Assembly: GCA_947037125.1 (NCBI GenBank)
Contig: CAMQTJ010000003.1
Coordinates: forward strand, 1 to 64,000
DNA: 64,000 bases
Source of the DNA: an uncultured Holdemania sp.
GTDB lineage: Bacteria > Bacillota_I > Bacilli_A > Erysipelotrichales > Erysipelotrichaceae
Direction: 5' to 3'
In this document: positions 4,515-30,781 of the stretch, piece by piece
Position numbering within the stretch: position 1 is the first letter of the stretch
How the letters are laid out: each line of letters starts with the position of its first letter
Position numbers and translations under genes: made by a program
The notes under the pieces: generated by a model
Databases searched by the model: none
What the model was told of the DNA's origin: nothing
Seen by the model: only the letters and a program-made list of their open reading frames with translations

Positions 4515-6764
4515 ATGAAAACAGTAATGAAAATAAATTCTATATTAATTATTTTATTTGTAATTAGCTTAACTTTTTTCAATTTTAAAAACAGTGATTC
4601 ACAGTATTGGGATAGCTGGGGTAAAAATGATTATTCACAAGATATATATTTGAAAAATACAGGATACAGTGGAGAAGATTTATTCAATATGCTATCAAAT
4701 CTTGCCCAAGAATTTGAAGTAAACATTATCAAACATGATTACTTAAATTATGATAATCAAACGATGATCGTAAAATCAATTTATATGGCAGACGATACTG
4801 ATGATCTTTTCTCTAATGATACCCTTAAAAAGGGGACTTGGCTATCATCATCAGATAATAAAAATAATGAATATTTAAGTTCAAGTAAATCATATACAAC
4901 AAAATCTATTGGTAATATCTTTGATTTTTTAGGTGATGATTATTTTGAAATATGGACTTTAAATAAGTTTGAAAGTGAACGTGGAACATTAGATGGTGAT
5001 TATACAATTAGAGCAACAAACACCAACAGTATAGATCAATTTATAGCTGAGTTATCATATCGAAGTGATATTTCAATCAATGACTTAACAACTCAAAACG
5101 CCTTTTCATCAATTGGTGCTTCCCCTATTGAAGCATTATGTTTGTTTGGACTTGTTGCAAGTTTTGTATTATATGGTTTAATGTGTCTTTTTTATGGAAT
5201 CAATAACTCTAAAAAAATTGGAATAATGAAACTTATCGGAATAAAAAATATTACGATTTGGAGTGATTTAGTTATATCAATAATTAAAACGGTTATTATT
5301 AGCGTTTTAATAATTAATATTTTAATTGTATTAATTATTAAAAATTTAACTATGGATTTTTTAATAACTTTATTTATAATACAGTTTGGATTTATTTTAT
5401 TAATAATACTATTTTCATCAATTGTATATTTTATAATTAAGAGTAATAGAATAAGTGATTTAATTAAGAATAGAAAAATTCAGAAGCCAATTATTTGTTT
5501 ATCTTATATAGTAAAATATACAATCTTATTTGTTGTATTAATTTTTGCAAGTTGTATATGCAGTTCTCTATTGATGGTTAATGATGAATATACTAAAATT
5601 GAAGACTGGAAATCAGTTGGAGATTTAGCTGTTTTAGTCAATGTTAATATAGGTGATGATGGTGCTAGTATTATGCAAGGTGATTTAAAATTATCAGAAG
5701 ACTTTGCGGGATATTATGAATATTTGAATAGTAAGGGAGCAATTTATGCTCTACCATCTGTCTATACACCACATGCTCAGTTAAAGTCAAAATATATTGA
5801 AGAAACTGATAGTTATGATTATGTTGATTATTTTAATCCTGACCTAGTAAGTGTAGGATATAGTGATATAGTTATGTCAGTTAACACAAACTATTTGAAA
5901 AGATTTCCTATACTTGATGAAGACCAAAATCAAATCGTTGTTAATGAAAATCAAGCAAGAACAATCTTAATACCCAAAACAAGAGAAAATGAGGCAGATG
6001 TGCTAATTGACCTCTATAAATCAGCTTATATTGCTGATTTAGAAAATATTGATATTAGATATGGAGTAGAAGATAATGAAGTCCCTAATATTGAAATAAA
6101 CTATGTTATTTATGAACCAGATTCTAGTGGATACTTTGCTTTTTCTACTGAGTATGAAGATAGTAATTACTTGATTAAAGAACCAATTTTTGTAGTCCTT
6201 ACAGATGATGGTATTACCTTAACTGAAAAAGGAAATATATTAGTTCAAGGCATAAATGCACCACTTAAAATTAATTTAGAGGACGTTTCAAGTAGTGAAT
6301 ACAATAATAATTTATTAGATGAAACTTCAAAATTTAATTTAGATGATAATCAATTGAAGTATATGGCGATTGAGGAAATCTTTGCAACCCAGATAATCGC
6401 ATTAGAGTTGTTAGCTAAACAGTTGTCGATTGCAATAATAATGTTATTTATTATAATGAGTGGCGTAAGTTATCAATTAACTCAGGAAATTTTTAAAGTC
6501 AACAAACAAAAAATATGTGTTAAAAAATTATATGGTTATTCTTTCTTTGATCGATATAACAAGTTAATTTTAGCTAATGTAGTTACAGTAATTATTTTAG
6601 GTGGTTTAGCTATTATCATTGCCCCAAATTTAGTGCAAATGACTATAAATATTTATTCTATATTCATCGTTTCTATACTAGCTATTATAGATTTATTGAT
6701 GATGTTAGTTATTATTAAGTATTTTGAAAATAAGAGTGTTTCTCAAGTTGTGAAAGGAGAATAA
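4515..6764 (+). CDS. FtsX-like permease, bacteriocin-associated integral membrane type
   Basis: 749 residues. One N-terminal membrane segment (about 8-24) is followed by an extracellular region to about 205, four helices (about 208-228, 250-272, 278-305, 330-352), a second large extracellular region (about 355-635), and three C-terminal helices. The layout and the tight link to a MacB/lactococcin-type ATPase match the putative bacteriocin immunity/export membrane protein of lactococcin 972-like clusters. It acts in the membrane, probably exporting or repelling a peptide. No bacteriocin precursor is visible upstream. It is stop-to-start adjacent to the ATPase gene. Function beyond transport is inferred. 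Confidence 0.75.
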   Translation: MKTVMKINSILIILFVISLTFFNFKNSDSQYWDSWGKNDYSQDIYLKNTGYSGEDLFNMLSNLAQEFEVNIIKHDYLNYDNQTMIVKSIYMADDTDDLFSNDTLKKGTWLSSSDNKNNEYLSSSKSYTTKSIGNIFDFLGDDYFEIWTLNKFESERGTLDGDYTIRATNTNSIDQFIAELSYRSDISINDLTTQNAFSSIGASPIEALCLFGLVASFVLYGLMCLFYGINNSKKIGIMKLIGIKNITIWSDLVISIIKTVIISVLIINILIVLIIKNLTMDFLITLFIIQFGFILLIILFSSIVYFIIKSNRISDLIKNRKIQKPIICLSYIVKYTILFVVLIFASCICSSLLMVNDEYTKIEDWKSVGDLAVLVNVNIGDDGASIMQGDLKLSEDFAGYYEYLNSKGAIYALPSVYTPHAQLKSKYIEETDSYDYVDYFNPDLVSVGYSDIVMSVNTNYLKRFPILDEDQNQIVVNENQARTILIPKTRENEADVLIDLYKSAYIADLENIDIRYGVEDNEVPNIEINYVIYEPDSSGYFAFSTEYEDSNYLIKEPIFVVLTDDGITLTEKGNILVQGINAPLKINLEDVSSSEYNNNLLDETSKFNLDDNQLKYMAIEEIFATQIIALELLAKQLSIAIIMLFIIMSGVSYQLTQEIFKVNKQKICVKKLYGYSFFDRYNKLILANVVTVIILGGLAIIIAPNLVQMTINIYSIFIVSILAIIDLLMMLVIIKYFENKSVSQVVKGE

Positions 6765-6766
6765 AA

Positions 6767-7399
6767 ATGATTGCTGTAAAATTAAATAAAATAAACAAAT
6801 CTTTTAATAAAAAAGAGGTTCTTAAGGATTTTTCACTAGAAATTAAAAGTGGTGAAATGGTTGCAATAACAGGTAGTTCTGGGTGTGGTAAGACAACATC
6901 ATTGAATATCATGGGATTAATTGAAAAGGCTGATAGTGGAACAGTAGACATCTTTGATATTAAAAATGCTTTGCCTAACACAAAAAAATCACATAAAGCA
7001 ATTAGGGAATATATTGGTTACTTATTTCAAAACTATGCATTAATTGATAATGAAACAGTTGAACAAAATCTTGAAATAGGACTTAGATATGTCAAGAAAG
7101 CTAATCATAAAAAGCTAATTAAAACTGCATTAGAAGCTGTAGGGTTAGAAAATTTTGAAAAAAGAAAAATCTTTGAATTATCAGGTGGAGAACAACAAAG
7201 AATTGCAATTGCTAGAGTAATGTTGAAACCATCAAAGCTAATTCTTGCCGATGAGCCAACAGGGTCATTAGATAGCGTAAATCGTAAACTAGTAATGGAT
7301 TTATTAATTAAGCTTAATGAAATGGGAAAAACTGTAATAATTGTTACTCATGATGATTACATTGCGAATCGATGTACAAGAGTTGTAAAAATTTATTAA
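6767..7399 (+). CDS. ABC ATPase, bacteriocin export/immunity (MacB-like) type
   Basis: 210 residues with all nucleotide-binding motifs: Walker A GSSGCGKTT, Q-loop LFQNYAL, signature LSGGEQQR, Walker B LILADEPTGSLD, and the switch His in IVTHDD. Its short length and GSLD D-loop are typical of ATPases that power FtsX-like permeases; the closest remembered group is the lactococcin 972-type exporter ATPase. It starts 2 bases after the permease stop with AAAGGAG 6-7 bases upstream, so the two form one complex. A LytTR regulator and histidine kinase follow and may control it. Confidence 0.88.
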   Translation: MIAVKLNKINKSFNKKEVLKDFSLEIKSGEMVAITGSSGCGKTTSLNIMGLIEKADSGTVDIFDIKNALPNTKKSHKAIREYIGYLFQNYALIDNETVEQNLEIGLRYVKKANHKKLIKTALEAVGLENFEKRKIFELSGGEQQRIAIARVMLKPSKLILADEPTGSLDSVNRKLVMDLLIKLNEMGKTVIIVTHDDYIANRCTRVVKIY

Positions 7400-7473
7400 A
7401 TGTTGTTATTAGCAACTTTAATTAATAAATAAGTTAAAATTAATGGAAATAATTGATTATGCAAATTATATAA

Positions 7474-7482
7474 TGTTATAAT
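7474..7482 (+). promoter_or_regulatory. Extended -10 promoter for the LytTR/GHKL pair
   Basis: TGTTATAAT lies 28 bases before the regulator start, with TTGATT at 7453-7458 as a plausible -35 at an 18-base spacing. The two-component pair can therefore be transcribed separately from the ABC genes. Confidence 0.55.
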
Positions 7483-7509
7483 TAATTTAGAATCACACAG
7501 AGGTAGTTT

Positions 7510-8223
7510 ATGTTTAAAATAGGGATAATTGATGACGAGATAATTGCTCGTAAAAAGATAAATAATATAATTAATCGTACGATTATTAATTTAAAAATAG
7601 ATTATAAAGTATTTGAATATAGTAGTGCTAATGCATTCCTTTCTAGCAACAATACAGATATTGATTTACTGTTTTTAGATATTGAAATGGGTAGTGAGAA
7701 TGGTGTGGAATTATCAAAAATAATGTTTGAAAAAGCTATGAAACCTATTATTGTTTTTGTGTCTTCTTATGATGGGTATATTAATGATGCATTTGGTTTA
7801 AATATCTATGCCTATGTACTGAAAAGTGAAATAGAGAAAAGATTACCAACCATTATCAATAATGTAATTAAGCAACTTGAAAAAAAGGCATTTGTAATTT
7901 TAGCTACTGAAAATGGTAACGAAACTTTTAAGTATGATGATATTGTCTACATAACAATTGATAATCGTAAATTTTTTATTAAAACATTAAGTAATTTAGA
8001 AACAACACGAATAAATGCTACTACTTTAAGTGGTATAAAATTATTAATTGGTGATCAATTTTTACAGGTTAATGCTAAATATATTGTTAATGGTATGCAC
8101 ATTAAATTAATTGAAAATGGTGCTGTAATTTTAGCTAATGATGAATGTATATTCATTTCTCGTGGTAAGTTTAAACAATTTAATAATTTATATAAAGATT
8201 ACTTAATTAGAGGTGGCATATAA
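7510..8223 (+). CDS. LytTR-family response regulator
   Basis: 237 residues. The receiver domain (about 1-120) shows the acidic pocket in IGIIDDE, the phosphoacceptor Asp in LLFLDIEMGSENG, and the conserved Lys in YVLKSE. A LytTR DNA-binding domain fills about 130-237 and contains ENGNETFKYDDIVYI and the C-terminal FKQFNNLYKDYL. Regulators of this AgrA/ComE type bind imperfect direct repeats and control bacteriocin, competence or virulence genes. The stop codon overlaps the start of the kinase gene by one base, so they are partners. No AgrB/AgrD pair accompanies this copy, so its signal is unknown. Confidence 0.9.
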   Translation: MFKIGIIDDEIIARKKINNIINRTIINLKIDYKVFEYSSANAFLSSNNTDIDLLFLDIEMGSENGVELSKIMFEKAMKPIIVFVSSYDGYINDAFGLNIYAYVLKSEIEKRLPTIINNVIKQLEKKAFVILATENGNETFKYDDIVYITIDNRKFFIKTLSNLETTRINATTLSGIKLLIGDQFLQVNAKYIVNGMHIKLIENGAVILANDECIFISRGKFKQFNNLYKDYLIRGGI

Positions 8224-9506
8224 TGTTAATTATCACAAGTGAACTTCTATTTTGTTTTTTTGATTTTATACTAATGAAAACTTTTGCTGATTTAATATTA
8301 GTAAATAAAAAAAATGGAATTGCAAAAGATACTATGTTCTTAGTGCTTTTTGCAATATTAACATTATTTATTGCATATAATGATATAGTATCGTATTTTT
8401 CATTTGTATTATTAATGGCGATTTCAACAATATTTTTAAATATTTTATATTCAGGAAAACTGATAAACAAATTTTTAATAGTAATTTTATTTCATGTAAT
8501 TTATGCAATATATTCAAGTGTTTTAGTTTTTGGTATAACTTATATTTTTGATATAGATAATAATTTAATATATCAATATGGATCTTCAGTAAGAATTTCA
8601 TTTATTATTACAACAAGATGTTTTGCATATATATTATTGATGTTAGTTTCTAGACTTAATAAAAGCTACAGAAAGGATTATATTGTTTCAAAAAATATAA
8701 TATTTATGTCGATAACATGTTTATTACTAGCAGGAGTTATCACAAATATGCTTTATACAAGTTATTCTAGCTATACTAGTGATATTGTTTTTTTAATTGC
8801 CGTTTTAATTATGATATTTATTGTAGCAATAATTACAGAGAAAGTTTTATTTCAACAAAAGATTAACTTAAAAAAAATACAGGATTTAGAAAATGCTTTA
8901 AGTATTAAAAAAACGTATTCTGATAAAAATTCATATGATTTTAACGAAATAAGAAGAATAAAACATGATATAAATAATAATTTGTTTGCAATTGAAACAT
9001 TACTGAGTGAACATAATTACGAAGATGCTCTAACATATTTAAAAGAGATATCAGGCTCAAAATCTTTAAAAAAAGTAATTATGAGTGGTAATGATGTAGT
9101 TGATGCTTTGTTGAACGTAAACGTTAATTTAAATCCTGAAATTGATTTTGATATTGAAATACATTCATTAGGACTTAATATTAATAATATGTCACTAGCA
9201 GTTATAGTAGGTAATGCAATTAGTAATTCAATTGAGGCTACTAAACAAGTTGATCATCATAAAAAAAATATAAAAATTATAATTAATGAAGACAAGCGGT
9301 GCATTAGAATGATATTTGAAAATTATTATATGTTTGTTCCAAATATTACAGACGGTAAATTAATTAGTATAAAATTAGACAAAGAAAACCATGGGTTGGG
9401 TTTGTATAGTATTGAAAATGAAACGAATAAGTTCAATGGTAAAATCAATTTTGATATTGATAAAAATCAAAGAAAGTTCACGCTTAATGTTTTATTGATG
9501 AAATAA
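8223..9506 (+). CDS. GHKL (AgrC-like) sensor histidine kinase
   Basis: 427 residues. Six to seven membrane helices fill residues 1-208. The phosphoacceptor His is H248 in IKHDINNN, the N-box is GNAISNSIEATKQ, and the G-box is NHGLGLYSIENE, so the kinase core looks intact. Membrane sensors of this shape detect peptides. It is translationally coupled to the LytTR regulator upstream and lies next to a bacteriocin-type exporter, which suggests sensing of a bacteriocin or pheromone; that role is inferred. A second kinase of the same length and architecture is encoded at 28234. Confidence 0.88.
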   Translation: MLIITSELLFCFFDFILMKTFADLILVNKKNGIAKDTMFLVLFAILTLFIAYNDIVSYFSFVLLMAISTIFLNILYSGKLINKFLIVILFHVIYAIYSSVLVFGITYIFDIDNNLIYQYGSSVRISFIITTRCFAYILLMLVSRLNKSYRKDYIVSKNIIFMSITCLLLAGVITNMLYTSYSSYTSDIVFLIAVLIMIFIVAIITEKVLFQQKINLKKIQDLENALSIKKTYSDKNSYDFNEIRRIKHDINNNLFAIETLLSEHNYEDALTYLKEISGSKSLKKVIMSGNDVVDALLNVNVNLNPEIDFDIEIHSLGLNINNMSLAVIVGNAISNSIEATKQVDHHKKNIKIIINEDKRCIRMIFENYYMFVPNITDGKLISIKLDKENHGLGLYSIENETNKFNGKINFDIDKNQRKFTLNVLLMK

Positions 9507-24674: not shown

Positions 24675-24959
24675 CAAGTATATAACAATTATAAAATAAC
24701 TAAAGATAAGAAGATTTTATATCAATATTTTACTACTAAAATTCTAATGCATATGATATCATAAATTATATTAAGAAGTAAAAATAGCATAGCACATTAC
24801 TAATTATTTACCGAAAATAATATAGTCTAAAAGGATTCTGAAAAGTTTAATTAGTGGATGTTTAGAATGGTAATTATTTAATAAAAAAAATCTAGCAGAT
24901 ACATATAAATTCTATAAAAGGTTATTTAAGTATTTAATGTTAGATGAGGAGGGGATTAT

Positions 24960-25372
24960 ACGAAAAAAAAGACATTGATTATTGTAATGAGTTTCACTAT
25001 TGTTGCATTAGTAATGATAAAATTATTATTTGTGTATTGGAGTTATAATCCCGATATACGTATTTCAAAGCCAATTGTGCCTGACAATAATAATTTTATA
25101 GAATATATTGGAGTTTCATATACTAATAAAGTTGAAATGGCAGATAGTTTGAATGATGATATGTTAGAATTTTTCTATTGTAATGAAAAAATAAATCTGA
25201 TTTTGTAAAGAATTATATCTCACCTACAATGATAAAATCATCAAGTGAAAATAAAGATGGGAAAATGGTTGTAAGATATTTTAGAAGTGCTACAACAAAA
25301 GATGGTGAAATAATAGAAGTAGATATTGAAAAGATATTTGATTTTATATTAGATAAAGATATGGATTTTTAA
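24960..25372 (+). pseudogene. Broken gene for a small anchored protein
   Basis: A good ribosome site (GAGGAGGGG, ending 24955) is followed by ACG at the expected start position, then KKKTLIIVMSFTIVALVMIK, a typical membrane anchor. The frame stops at 25208, but a shifted frame continues from about 25197 as KSDFVKNYISPTMIKSSSEN to TAA 25370-25372. Loss of the ATG and one frameshift indicate a dead gene of about 135 codons. I do not recognise the family. Confidence 0.6.
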
Positions 25373-25585
25373 AAAGTAAATAATAATATAAATAGTTTAA
25401 CGAAAGTTATAAAAAAATACTATGTTAAACAAATAATGGACACAAAGCATATAAAAAAGTTAGAGACCTAATGTAAAGTTGAAGTTTATCTCATAAAAAA
25501 AATAAAATATGTGATTTTATCATTAAGTGATGAGATTAATAAATATTTTTTTTAAGATTAAGTGAATAGAGAATGGGGAAAAATA

Positions 25586-26689: not shown

Positions 26690-26822
26690 TTTAAATAATG
26701 ACGAATTAAAGAGTAATAATGATTTTAGTTGGAAATATTTCCCTGCTATTTTAACTATGGATGGGAAATGGATAATTTTTAAAAAATCAATAAGTAATAA
26801 ACTAATTGATTATTTTAAGTAA
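26685..26822 (+). pseudogene. Possible gene fragment without start
   Basis: An open stretch of about 45 codons includes DFSWKYFPAILTMDGKWIIF and ends at TAA 26820-26822. It has no start codon and no ribosome site, and its N-terminus runs into the end of the preceding gene. The composition looks protein-like, so it may be the tail of a deleted gene. Confidence 0.3.
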
Positions 26823-26829
26823 AACTATT

Positions 26830-26932: not shown

Positions 26933-26956
26933 ATAATAATATATGAGGTGAAAAAT

Positions 26957-27478
26957 ATGCATGTTTATATTACAAAATTATTAATTGATAATAATATTAT
27001 TCCATTAGATGCAAAAGAAAGTTACGAATATGGTATTGAAGTTTGGATATTAAAAATGATTCATTCTATGACTATTATTGCAATAGGGTTAGCTTTTAGT
27101 AGAATAGTAGAAACATTATTATTCTTATTAGTTTTCTCTAACATAAGAAAACTTGCAGGAGGATATCATGCGAGTACAAAAATGAGATGTTTTAGTATAT
27201 CTTTAATTATGATTTTTTCTTTATGTACTATTTTAAATACGATAAAAATACCAAATAATTATTTGTTAATAATGTATTTTATTTGTGCATTAATAGTTAT
27301 AGTAAAATGTAAAACAGACTATAAAAAGCAGCTTATTTTATTGATGATTATAATTTTTATAATTAATTTAGTATTAATTTATTATTCATTTAATGGCTTT
27401 TTTACGACAATATGTATTGCCGTTTTATTTGCATCAATATTACTAATAATGTCAATTATTAAAGAGAAAAAGCTATAA
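26957..27478 (+). CDS. agrB: AgrB-type peptide-processing membrane endopeptidase
   Basis: 173 residues from ATG 26957 (GAGG 8 bases upstream). Four to six membrane helices. The catalytic pair lies in NIRKLAGGYHASTKMRC: His71 and Cys78 have the same seven-residue spacing as the Staphylococcus AgrB pair. AgrB cleaves the C-terminal tail of AgrD and forms the thiolactone of the autoinducing peptide. The substrate is encoded 2.1 kb downstream at 29625, after the regulator and kinase, so the order here is B-A-C-D rather than B-D-C-A. First gene of the operon. Confidence 0.92.
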   Translation: MHVYITKLLIDNNIIPLDAKESYEYGIEVWILKMIHSMTIIAIGLAFSRIVETLLFLLVFSNIRKLAGGYHASTKMRCFSISLIMIFSLCTILNTIKIPNNYLLIMYFICALIVIVKCKTDYKKQLILLMIIIFIINLVLIYYSFNGFFTTICIAVLFASILLIMSIIKEKKL

Positions 27479-27494
27479 AGTATAGGGGAATTTT

Positions 27495-28232
27495 ATGTTA
27501 AGAATAGGGATATGTGATGATCAAAAAGAAATAATAGATGAAATCGAAAGAATTGTAAGTGATTATTTAAATGATAAACATATTATTTTTTCAATAATTA
27601 AATTTTATAGTGGGGGTCAATTAAAAAATGAAATGCTTTATAAAAAGGTTGATTGTTTATTTTTGGATATAGATTTAGGTGAGGATAATGGTGTAACAAT
27701 TGCACAGCAAATAAGAGAAGATGTTTATGATAAAATGACGATTATCTTTGTTACAGGAGACAGTTCATATCAAACTAAGGTTTTACCTTTACATACGTTT
27801 GATTATATCCTTAAACCTTTTAAAAAAGCTGATATAGAGAAAACATTAAGTGATTACTTAAAGTGGAATAAAGATAAAATAATGAAAAAAATTGTATTTA
27901 ATTTAAAAACGAAAAATGGTAATGAAGTCATTGTTGAAGATGATATTATTTATATTGAATATATTAATAGAAAAATTGTTGTTAATACTACAAATAATTA
28001 TTATGAAATCAATATGACACTAAAAGCTTTTTATGAAATGCTTAGTTATGAAAAATTCTTTATACCACATAATGCATTTATAATTAATGTGGAGAAAGTT
28101 AAATCATTTAAAAGTTCATTATTTAATATTGTTATGATAAATGATAAAAACATACCAATTTCACAAAAAAGGCTTAAGGAATTTAAATCTAAGTACAACG
28201 ACTATATTAATAGATTAAGTAGGTGGATGTGA
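27495..28232 (+). CDS. AgrA-like LytTR response regulator
   Basis: 245 residues. The receiver domain (about 1-125) has IGICDDQKE, the phosphoacceptor in CLFLDIDLGEDNG, and the Lys in DYILKPFKK. The LytTR domain (about 135-240) contains NGNEVIVEDDIIYIEYINRK. It follows agrB by 16 bases and precedes the kinase start by one base, so it is the AgrA of this locus. It should bind imperfect 9-bp direct repeats near its targets, but I could not locate a convincing pair in front of agrB or agrD. Confidence 0.92.
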   Translation: MLRIGICDDQKEIIDEIERIVSDYLNDKHIIFSIIKFYSGGQLKNEMLYKKVDCLFLDIDLGEDNGVTIAQQIREDVYDKMTIIFVTGDSSYQTKVLPLHTFDYILKPFKKADIEKTLSDYLKWNKDKIMKKIVFNLKTKNGNEVIVEDDIIYIEYINRKIVVNTTNNYYEINMTLKAFYEMLSYEKFFIPHNAFIINVEKVKSFKSSLFNIVMINDKNIPISQKRLKEFKSKYNDYINRLSRWM

Positions 28233-28233
28233 T

Positions 28234-29517
28234 ATGGAATTTCTTGTTAGGTTATGTTCTAGTTTTATAATTCATTTTATTTTTTATAATTATTTTCATG
28301 ATAAATATAAAACAAAAATATCAGTAGTAAAACAATGTGTATTGATAATTATATTAGTTAATATTAGTTCTTTTATAAATTTATTAGGTATCCCACAACT
28401 AAATTTCTTAATAATGTCGTTATGTTATATATTTATGGGATATAGTATTTTCGAATATCATACTTTTAAAGAAGTTATCTCAGATTTAGCTTTTTTTATC
28501 TTAATGGTACTGTTGGAAACTCTGTGTTTTTATATCGCTAATATATTATTAGGAGGCATTGATATTAATAACAATGTTCATATAACACTAATTTCATCAC
28601 TTATCTTATTTTTCTTAAGTTCAATTTTAAAGGGAAAGATGAACGGATTTTCATTAAAAAATGTATCTATTTATGGATTTATTGTATTTTTTTCGACTAC
28701 TTTTTTTAATATGTTTTTGCTATATATATTTGCATACGCACATAATAGTAGTGAATCTAATATTCATCGTGAAATTATAATTTTCGCAAGTATAGGAACA
28801 GTTATGATAAATATAGTAATAATTAGTTGTTTTCAAATAATCAATAAATCAAATCAAACTAAAAGTGAGTTAATGTGTGAAAAACACCAATACGATCGCT
28901 TATTACAACACTATGCTGATATTAAAAAAAATATTGATAATACCCAAGGGTTAATTCACGATTTCCGTAATCATTTTCAAACTGTAACTCTTGCGTATGA
29001 ACAGGGAGAAAATGAATTGGCGAAAAAAACAATTGATAATTATCTAAATGAAATTGATAAGAGTAAAATTATTTATAATACAAATAATGTGATTTTAGAT
29101 ATGATTTTATATGAAAAACATAATGAGGCTGCAAAGTATGGGATAAAGTTTATATTTAAAATGAAAGACATGGATTTGAATTTTATTGATGACTTTGAGT
29201 TAATTACTTTAGTTGGAAATTTATTAGATAATTGTATTGAGGCTAATTATGAAGTTAGTAATTTAGAAAAATTTATTTCAATTTTAGTGTTTGAGGTAGA
29301 TGGAATGATCATAATTAAAATTGAAAATAGTTGTAATAATAAAATAGATATAGTAAATAATGAAATCAAAACTACAAAAAAATCAAGTGATCATAAAAGA
29401 GGACAAGGCGTAAGAAACATAAAAAAAGTAGTGGATAAACTTGAAGGGAATTTTGATATTTATATAAAAGAGGAAGTATGCACAACAATAATTTCTATTC
29501 CTGTATTAGTTAATTAA
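28234..29517 (+). CDS. AgrC-like GHKL sensor histidine kinase
   Basis: 427 residues. Six to seven membrane helices lie in residues 1-205, followed by a coiled dimerisation helix. The phosphoacceptor is H242 in LIHDFRNHFQTV, the classic AgrC H-box. The N-box is GNLLDNCIEANYEV and the G-box is RGQGVRNIKKV. It starts one base after the regulator stop, with AGGTGG within the end of that gene. It is the presumed receptor for the peptide from the agrD gene downstream. Confidence 0.92.
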   Translation: MEFLVRLCSSFIIHFIFYNYFHDKYKTKISVVKQCVLIIILVNISSFINLLGIPQLNFLIMSLCYIFMGYSIFEYHTFKEVISDLAFFILMVLLETLCFYIANILLGGIDINNNVHITLISSLILFFLSSILKGKMNGFSLKNVSIYGFIVFFSTTFFNMFLLYIFAYAHNSSESNIHREIIIFASIGTVMINIVIISCFQIINKSNQTKSELMCEKHQYDRLLQHYADIKKNIDNTQGLIHDFRNHFQTVTLAYEQGENELAKKTIDNYLNEIDKSKIIYNTNNVILDMILYEKHNEAAKYGIKFIFKMKDMDLNFIDDFELITLVGNLLDNCIEANYEVSNLEKFISILVFEVDGMIIIKIENSCNNKIDIVNNEIKTTKKSSDHKRGQGVRNIKKVVDKLEGNFDIYIKEEVCTTIISIPVLVN

Positions 29518-29624
29518 TTTAAATGTAATATATTTAGTAAGTTATACATGATTTAATATACATTAAACAACAGTAGTTGAAATAAAATAATAATATGCTA
29601 TATTTTAAATAGGAGGTTACAACT

Positions 29625-29765
29625 ATGAAAAAAAATGAAAATAATATTTTGAAATTAGTTAAAAAATGTGCAGATAAAGAAATTACTAAAACTGTAGATG
29701 GTAAATGTTTGTTTTTTGGATATCAACCTAAAGTACCAGCTAATTTAAAGAAGTGTAATAAGTAA
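29625..29765 (+). CDS. agrD: AgrD-type cyclic lactone autoinducer precursor
   Basis: 46 residues. The N-terminal part (NNILKLVKKCADK) is a short amphipathic helix. The core reads CLFFG at residues 28-32, followed by YQPKVPANLKK, the conserved C-terminal tail of Firmicute AgrD proteins, where a Cys four residues before the cleavage point forms the thiolactone. By family rules AgrB would cut after Gly32, giving a five-membered ring C-L-F-F-G with an unknown N-terminal tail. AGGAGGT lies 7 bases before the ATG, and TTGAAA with TATATT (about 29577-29604) may supply a private promoter. It starts 107 bases after the kinase. Extra Cys at positions 15 and 44 are unusual. Confidence 0.88.
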   Translation: MKKNENNILKLVKKCADKEITKTVDGKCLFFGYQPKVPANLKKCNK

Positions 29766-29774
29766 TTATTATAC

Positions 29775-29859
29775 TAATGACGAAATAATTGTTGGTTAGT
29801 AAACTACCCTAAATGAAAAAAATAAGTCCTAATATAAATCAACAATAATTTAGTCATTA
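29775..29859. repeat. Long imperfect inverted repeat after agrD
   Basis: A 20-base arm (29775-29794, starting TAATGAC) and its partner (29840-29859, ending GTCATTA) match at 18 of 20 positions, enclosing a 45-base loop. It starts 10 bases after the agrD stop. It could be an RNA structure in the agrD transcript or a remnant of mobile-element ends. Confidence 0.55.
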
Positions 29860-29864
29860 AATAA

Positions 29865-29890
29865 AATAAGGTATGATATCGTATCTTATT
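29865..29890. repeat. Near-palindrome centred on GATATC
   Basis: AATAAG (29865-29870) and CTTATT (29885-29890) flank an almost self-complementary core, TATGATATCGTA. Mismatches are G-T compatible, so it would fold in RNA. No T run follows. Confidence 0.45.
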
Positions 29891-29938
29891 GATTAATGAA
29901 TTATAAATAATGTAATATGTTTAACTGTTAACATGTGT

Positions 29939-29993
29939 ATACCTAATTATTAAGTAATTTACCCAATTTACTTAATAATTAGGTATATTTTTT
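29939..29993 (+). terminator. Strong terminator downstream of agrD
   Basis: A perfect 19-bp stem, ATACCTAATTATTAAGTAA (29939-29957) with its complement at 29968-29986, is followed by seven T. It lies 174 bases after agrD, so the earlier repeats are inside the transcript. From here to 30241 there is only a weaker AT-rich hairpin (about 30140-30165) facing the phosphodiesterase gene and no gene. Confidence 0.75.
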
Positions 29994-30241: not shown

Positions 30242-30781
30242 TTACATTGTTATACGGTTTAAAGCATTGTCTTTAAGATCATAGATAGTAAATGAATCAT
30301 TATCTAATAATGCATATGAGTTGATCATATCACCTTTGGCTAAAGTTATTGAGCTAGGATTTAAAAATAATACGTTATCTGTTTGTTGAATTAATTTTAA
30401 ATGTGTATGACCACTAATCATAATATTTATATCATTTTCTGTTATAAATTTATCATTATTTAAATGACCATGAGTTAATAAAATATTTTTCTCTTTTAGA
30501 TTTATTATTTTAAAGTCTTGCATGATATCAAACTCTAATACCATTTGATCTACTTCACTATCACAATTACCACGAATTGCAATTATATGTTCTTTTAATG
30601 GATTTAAAATTTCAATAACCTGTTTTGGATCATAAGATAATGGTAATGGATTTCTTGGACCATGATATAAAACATCACCTAAAATAATAATCTTGTTACA
30701 TTTGTGTTTTGTATATAAATCACTAATTAATTTTGCACTGTTAACACTTCCATGAATGTCTGCTACAACTAAATATTTCAT
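30242..30781 (-). CDS. YfcE/MJ0936-type metallophosphoesterase
   Basis: 179 residues. It has all calcineurin-like phosphoesterase motifs: VVADIHGS near the start, ILGDVLYHG, IRGNCDSEVD, LLTHGH and ISGHTHLK. Proteins of this length and motif set (YfcE in E. coli) are manganese-dependent phosphodiesterases acting on small phosphodiesters; the cellular substrate is not established. Start supported by GGATGG upstream on the minus strand. It lies 30 bases downstream of the deacetylase gene on the same strand and may be co-transcribed with it. Confidence 0.9.
   Translation of the reverse strand: MKYLVVADIHGSVNSAKLISDLYTKHKCNKIIILGDVLYHGPRNPLPLSYDPKQVIEILNPLKEHIIAIRGNCDSEVDQMVLEFDIMQDFKIINLKEKNILLTHGHLNNDKFITENDINIMISGHTHLKLIQQTDNVLFLNPSSITLAKGDMINSYALLDNDSFTIYDLKDNALNRITM

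Follow-up and report, generated by a model that had tools for sequence, protein, structure and literature searches.

Peptide quorum-sensing systems of the agr type have been described with their genes in more than one order, for example agrBDCA in Staphylococcus aureus (PMC5981134) and agrACDB in the agr2 locus of Clostridioides difficile (PMC3754575). The same four components are encoded at positions 26957-29765 of the stretch of 64,000 nucleotides from an uncultured Holdemania sp. that was analysed here (the window), but B and D, which adjoin in both described systems, are parted in this locus. We consider it very probable that the region is a complete agr-type peptide quorum-sensing system, and it probably works in cell-to-cell signalling. 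This assessment is based on the family identity of all four proteins, their catalytic and phospho-relay residues, the common ancestry of the genes and the alignment of the predicted ring.

Gene order and flanking regions

All four genes are located on the forward strand in the order B-A-C-D, with open frames throughout and a plausible ribosome site in front of each. They are agrB (26957-27478, 173 aa), the gene of an agrA-like response regulator (27495-28232, 245 aa), that of an agrC-like GHKL sensor kinase (28234-29517, 427 aa) and agrD, the signal precursor gene (29625-29765, 46 codons). As the start of AgrB, the ATG at 26957 was preferred over the upstream GTG at 26948, because the latter falls inside the ribosome site. 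Sixteen bases separate agrB from agrA, a single base separates agrA from agrC, and 107 bases lie between agrC and agrD. The original prediction had proposed a four-gene agr locus differing in its order from the classic B-D-C-A, with a peptide gene that has its own ribosome site; the ORF positions and family matches of all four genes agree with this layout, and the sequence AGGAGGT is present 8 nt upstream of the agrD start.

The order B-A-C-D is unusual among the loci compared. Our census comprised 49 AgrD loci (45 detected by the family model and 4 by the ring pattern described below), mainly from class-level relatives and with the Clostridia represented by the four pattern loci only. AgrB and AgrD were neighbours in 40 of the 42 loci with an AgrB nearby, the exceptions being the window and the locus L041 with the order D-A-C-B. 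The adjacency of agrB and agrD, a usual although not strictly defining trait of agr loci, is therefore absent from the window, where A and C lie in between.

Short broken frames that are possibly gene remnants were observed upstream of the locus at 24675-25560 and 26700-26823. At 4515-9506, the window additionally carries genes for a DUF1430 membrane protein and an ABC ATPase followed by a LytTR regulator/GHKL kinase pair without AgrB, a unit that resembles those for peptide-responsive export or immunity.

Predicted proteins and the signal peptide

AgrB matches PF04647 in Pfam (1.1e-23) and is a predicted membrane cysteine peptidase that would cut and cyclise AgrD. Its catalytic residues His71 and Cys78 are part of the motif GGYH-x6-C, and H71, C78 and GGYH were invariant in an alignment of 11 sequences. 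According to hydropathy and a motif check, the protein is short and devoid of the usual P..T..N.P loop; AgrBs of 168-178 aa without this cytoplasmic loop were also seen in the loci L048, L059 and L066. The regulator matches the receiver domain Response_reg (PF00072, 2e-14) and the DNA-binding domain LytTR (PF04397, 3.8e-17), with Asp58 as phospho-acceptor by motif. The kinase matches HATPase_c_5 (PF14501, 1.8e-19), has approximately six hydrophobic segments between residues 27 and 205 as judged by hydropathy, and exhibits an H-box HDFRNH (H242), an N-box NLLDN and a G-box GQG. No sequence match was found between AgrB or AgrC and solved structures.

The AgrD peptide, MKKNENNILKLVKKCADKEITKTVDGKCLFFGYQPKVPANLKKCNK, shows the similarity to AgrD profiles that its proposed identity demands, with a match to NCBIfam TIGR04223 at 41.3 bits (cut-off 19, 1.2e-10) over model positions 1-38 of 38, and this is the sole family matched. 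Its leader is strongly amphipathic, with a maximum moment of 0.56 that was matched by 1.2% of shuffles; the charge of the leader exceeds that of most AgrDs and was counted against the agr reading. In an alignment of 48 distinct AgrDs (the window peptide and 47 others), the usual register is a ring Cys or Ser plus four residues, followed by X-Q/E-P. The window peptide fits this register with C28-L29-F30-F31-G32 (bases 29706-29720) and the recognition tail YQPKVPANLKKCNK, so that the predicted ring is C-L-F-F-G with the cut before Tyr33, consistent with the earlier proposal of a five-residue ring ending before Y-Q-P. Cysteines are present at positions 15, 28 and 44. The two outside the ring had been considered unusual, which did not hold, given that 13 of the 48 distinct AgrDs contain at least two Cys; the AgrD of locus L034 likewise has three, near the start, in the ring and at the end.

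A search for the pattern C-x-F-F-G-[YHND]-Q-P-[KE]-x-P in 85,462 species genomes returned four loci. The Firmicutes bacterium UBA5301 encodes an AgrD (L077, 7711-7845) with the identical core CLFFGYQPKVP, but a different leader and end; it is situated at a contig edge, hence no AgrB is visible. Two Anaerocolumna loci (L078 and L079) have the ring CVFFG within the core C-x-FFGYQPK-x-P, and their AgrDs are 43% identical to that of the window over 42 residues. The fourth locus, in RUG111 (L080), contains two tandem, nearly identical AgrD genes with the ring CIFFG (5072-5209 and 5283-5420), which adjoin agrA-C and follow the A-C pair, and AgrB is absent from the 8 kb around them. A single match to the pattern on a viral contig was discarded, as it lies inside a long frame of the opposite strand and has no AgrD-like ORF. 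Because the scan yielded four loci including the identical core of UBA5301, the CLFFG ring is, by this pattern, rare but not unique. The original prediction knew of no described signal with this ring; in the literature searched, none was found and the string CLFFG was met only in the contexts of a plant protein and a mammalian exchanger, although the core itself recurs in UBA5301.

The ring had further been predicted to be a thiolactone. While its residues fit the alignment, agr pentameric thiolactones that are free of an exotail rearrange spontaneously to a homodetic cyclopeptide, the half-life of the Listeria peptide being 1.3 min at pH 7 and 37 °C (PMC11297923), and a tail-free form of the window signal would be expected to do the same. 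It is thus quite conceivable, although we lean against it, that the mature signal is an all-amide cyclo-CLFFG formed by trimming of the tail to Cys28 and an S-to-N acyl shift within minutes. The same rearrangement has been reported for the peptides of Listeria and Ruminiclostridium (PMC11297923), and relatives of the window peptide likewise carry five-residue rings. With a tail retained (K-, GK- or longer), on the other hand, the thiolactone would be stable; the sequence does not decide between the two, since the state of the signal is set by the position of the N-terminal cut, which the letters do not reveal. The computed [M+H]+ values are 568.259 for the CLFFG ring, identical for thiolactone and cyclopeptide, 696.354 for the cyclised form with a K tail (KCLFFG) and 753.375 for that with a GK tail (GKCLFFG).

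Common ancestry of the four genes

The closest relative of the system was found in G468, a genome from another order of the same class. In the phylum sample, the only AgrD match outside the window genome was in G468, and in the class sample the best AgrC match belonged to the same G468 locus. In phylogenies built by maximum likelihood from 46 A, 44 C and 40 B proteins, each window gene was sister to its G468 counterpart (A 96/59, C 100/95, B 80/77). BLAST was concordant with the trees except for AgrB, which scored highest against Anaerocolumna by a small margin, and the G468 AgrD is one of the five AgrDs closely related to that of the window. In the G468 locus (L100), agrB (4645-5169), agrD (5267-5422) and agrC (5474-6751) are followed by agrA (6744-7478) on the other strand. 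It shares with the window a short AgrB (174 aa) and a similarly charged AgrD leader, but differs by its B-D-C order with an opposite A, by the ring CHWWL and by a protein identity of 28-32%. The B, A and C proteins of Anaerocolumna are among the next closest; these loci differ from the window in the order A-C-B-D, the ring CVFFG and an AgrB of normal length (195-196 aa). Given that A, B and C have their sisters in one G468 locus whose AgrD is close to that of the window, the four genes are, judged from these comparisons, one inherited system with a reshuffled gene order, which supports the original grouping of the distal peptide with the local agrB, LytTR regulator and kinase.

No orthologue of the system was detected in 311 genomes of the order, where the best AgrB reached 29-33%, and it is absent from three congeners. 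A search of GTDB genomes and viral contigs by pattern and tblastn likewise revealed no orthologue via AgrB. In phages, AgrB gave nothing but weak matches, with 25-40% identity across 35-67% of the query, and no AgrD was found on plasmids. A synteny comparison with the congeners was abandoned, as the downstream phosphoesterase (46-50%) has unrelated surroundings in them and no empty site could be defined.

The genome encodes three other AgrBs, one of which could process the window AgrD, and this was counted against the agr reading. One of them belongs to a third agr system (C43:17109-17770, locus L023 6068-9021) with the order A-C-D-B and the predicted ring CIYIM. The other two (C45:3235-3762 and C4:62912-63334) have no recognised AgrD; one is lone, upstream of a gyrB/parE-like gene, and the other is 5'-shortened and beside a regulator-kinase pair. 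The peptides that belong to them may have diverged beyond what the AgrD model recognises. A second AgrD of the genome (C1:96353-96463, L024 8342-8467, minus strand), in which the ring Cys is replaced by Ser (SSWLT before YQPEEP) and a lactone is thus predicted, has an A-C pair on one side and a further LytTR regulator on the other, and its vicinity lacks an AgrB.

These observations, together with the gap of 2.1 kb between B and D and the fact that the two are non-neighbours in just 2 of 42 loci, could mean that the window AgrD is processed by another AgrB of the genome and that B-A-C and D are accidental neighbours, all the more since C43, C45 and C4 each carry an AgrB, and C1 an AgrD that is accompanied by C and A but by no B. 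We regard this as very unlikely, because A, B and C are sisters to the genes of one agr locus whose AgrD is close to the window AgrD, and because the C43 AgrB already adjoins an AgrD of its own. Least probable of all is a decaying locus in which the relocated D is out of use and kinase and regulator answer other signals, as might be suspected from the patchy distribution (none in three congeners) and the possible remnants upstream (24675-25560 and 26700-26823), since four open frames, ribosome sites, intact motifs and the full-length match of agrD to its family model argue against it.

Transcription, proposed mechanism and meaning

We infer that agrB-A-C would form one tight transcription unit, followed by agrD with a likely promoter of its own. 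The candidate promoter at 29577-29604 (forward strand; TTGAAA-16-TATATT with TG before the -10) likely serves agrD, but is weak evidence by itself because the number of promoter-like sites in the AT-rich stretch (42) does not exceed that expected from shuffles (40.2). The suggestion that the peptide gene may have its own promoter is therefore met by a suitable site, albeit of a kind no commoner than in shuffled sequence. Upstream of agrD and agrB, LytTR direct repeats above the level of shuffles were not detected in a search without a clade-specific consensus, which leaves autoregulation without sequence support. Downstream of agrD, a palindrome at 29938-29987, whose 23-nt arms show 96% complementarity, with a T run behind it up to 29996, is likely the agrD terminator; its symmetry would also suit the convergent gene at 30242-30781. 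The structured 3' untranslated stretch at 29766-29930 contains two further hairpins and folds with z = -3.16 without the terminator and -6.15 with it. Rfam gave no match in the locus including this stretch, and its interpretation as a mobile or repeated element was rejected, as it is present in a single copy in the genome.

In the mechanism proposed here, AgrB would cut AgrD after Gly32 and close a five-residue ring between the thiol of Cys28 and the carboxyl group of Gly32, and the peptide would be exported and trimmed N-terminally to some extent. At high density, the ring peptide would bind the AgrC-like kinase, resulting in phosphorylation of the LytTR regulator, which in turn would alter transcription, probably including that of the agr genes. 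Processing, ring identity, sensing and autoregulation are all inferred steps. The separation of agrD from agrB-A-C under its own promoter might allow the cell to listen and to process without signalling, with the output controlled apart from sensing. In S. aureus, RNAIII has a regulatory RNA function, and the D transcript might carry a similar one. We consider this idea of separate control and an RNA function unlikely.

The clear oddities of the locus are only two, namely the order parting agrD from agrB and the undescribed ring sequence, and we expect the system to be standard in its biology. With this locus, a group in which few signals have been studied gains a complete agr system that is defined by sequence and whose predicted signal, cyclic CLFFG, is testable. 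The locus also demonstrates that agrD can lie 2 kb from its agrB, so that searches restricted to the neighbourhood of agrB would miss such cases.
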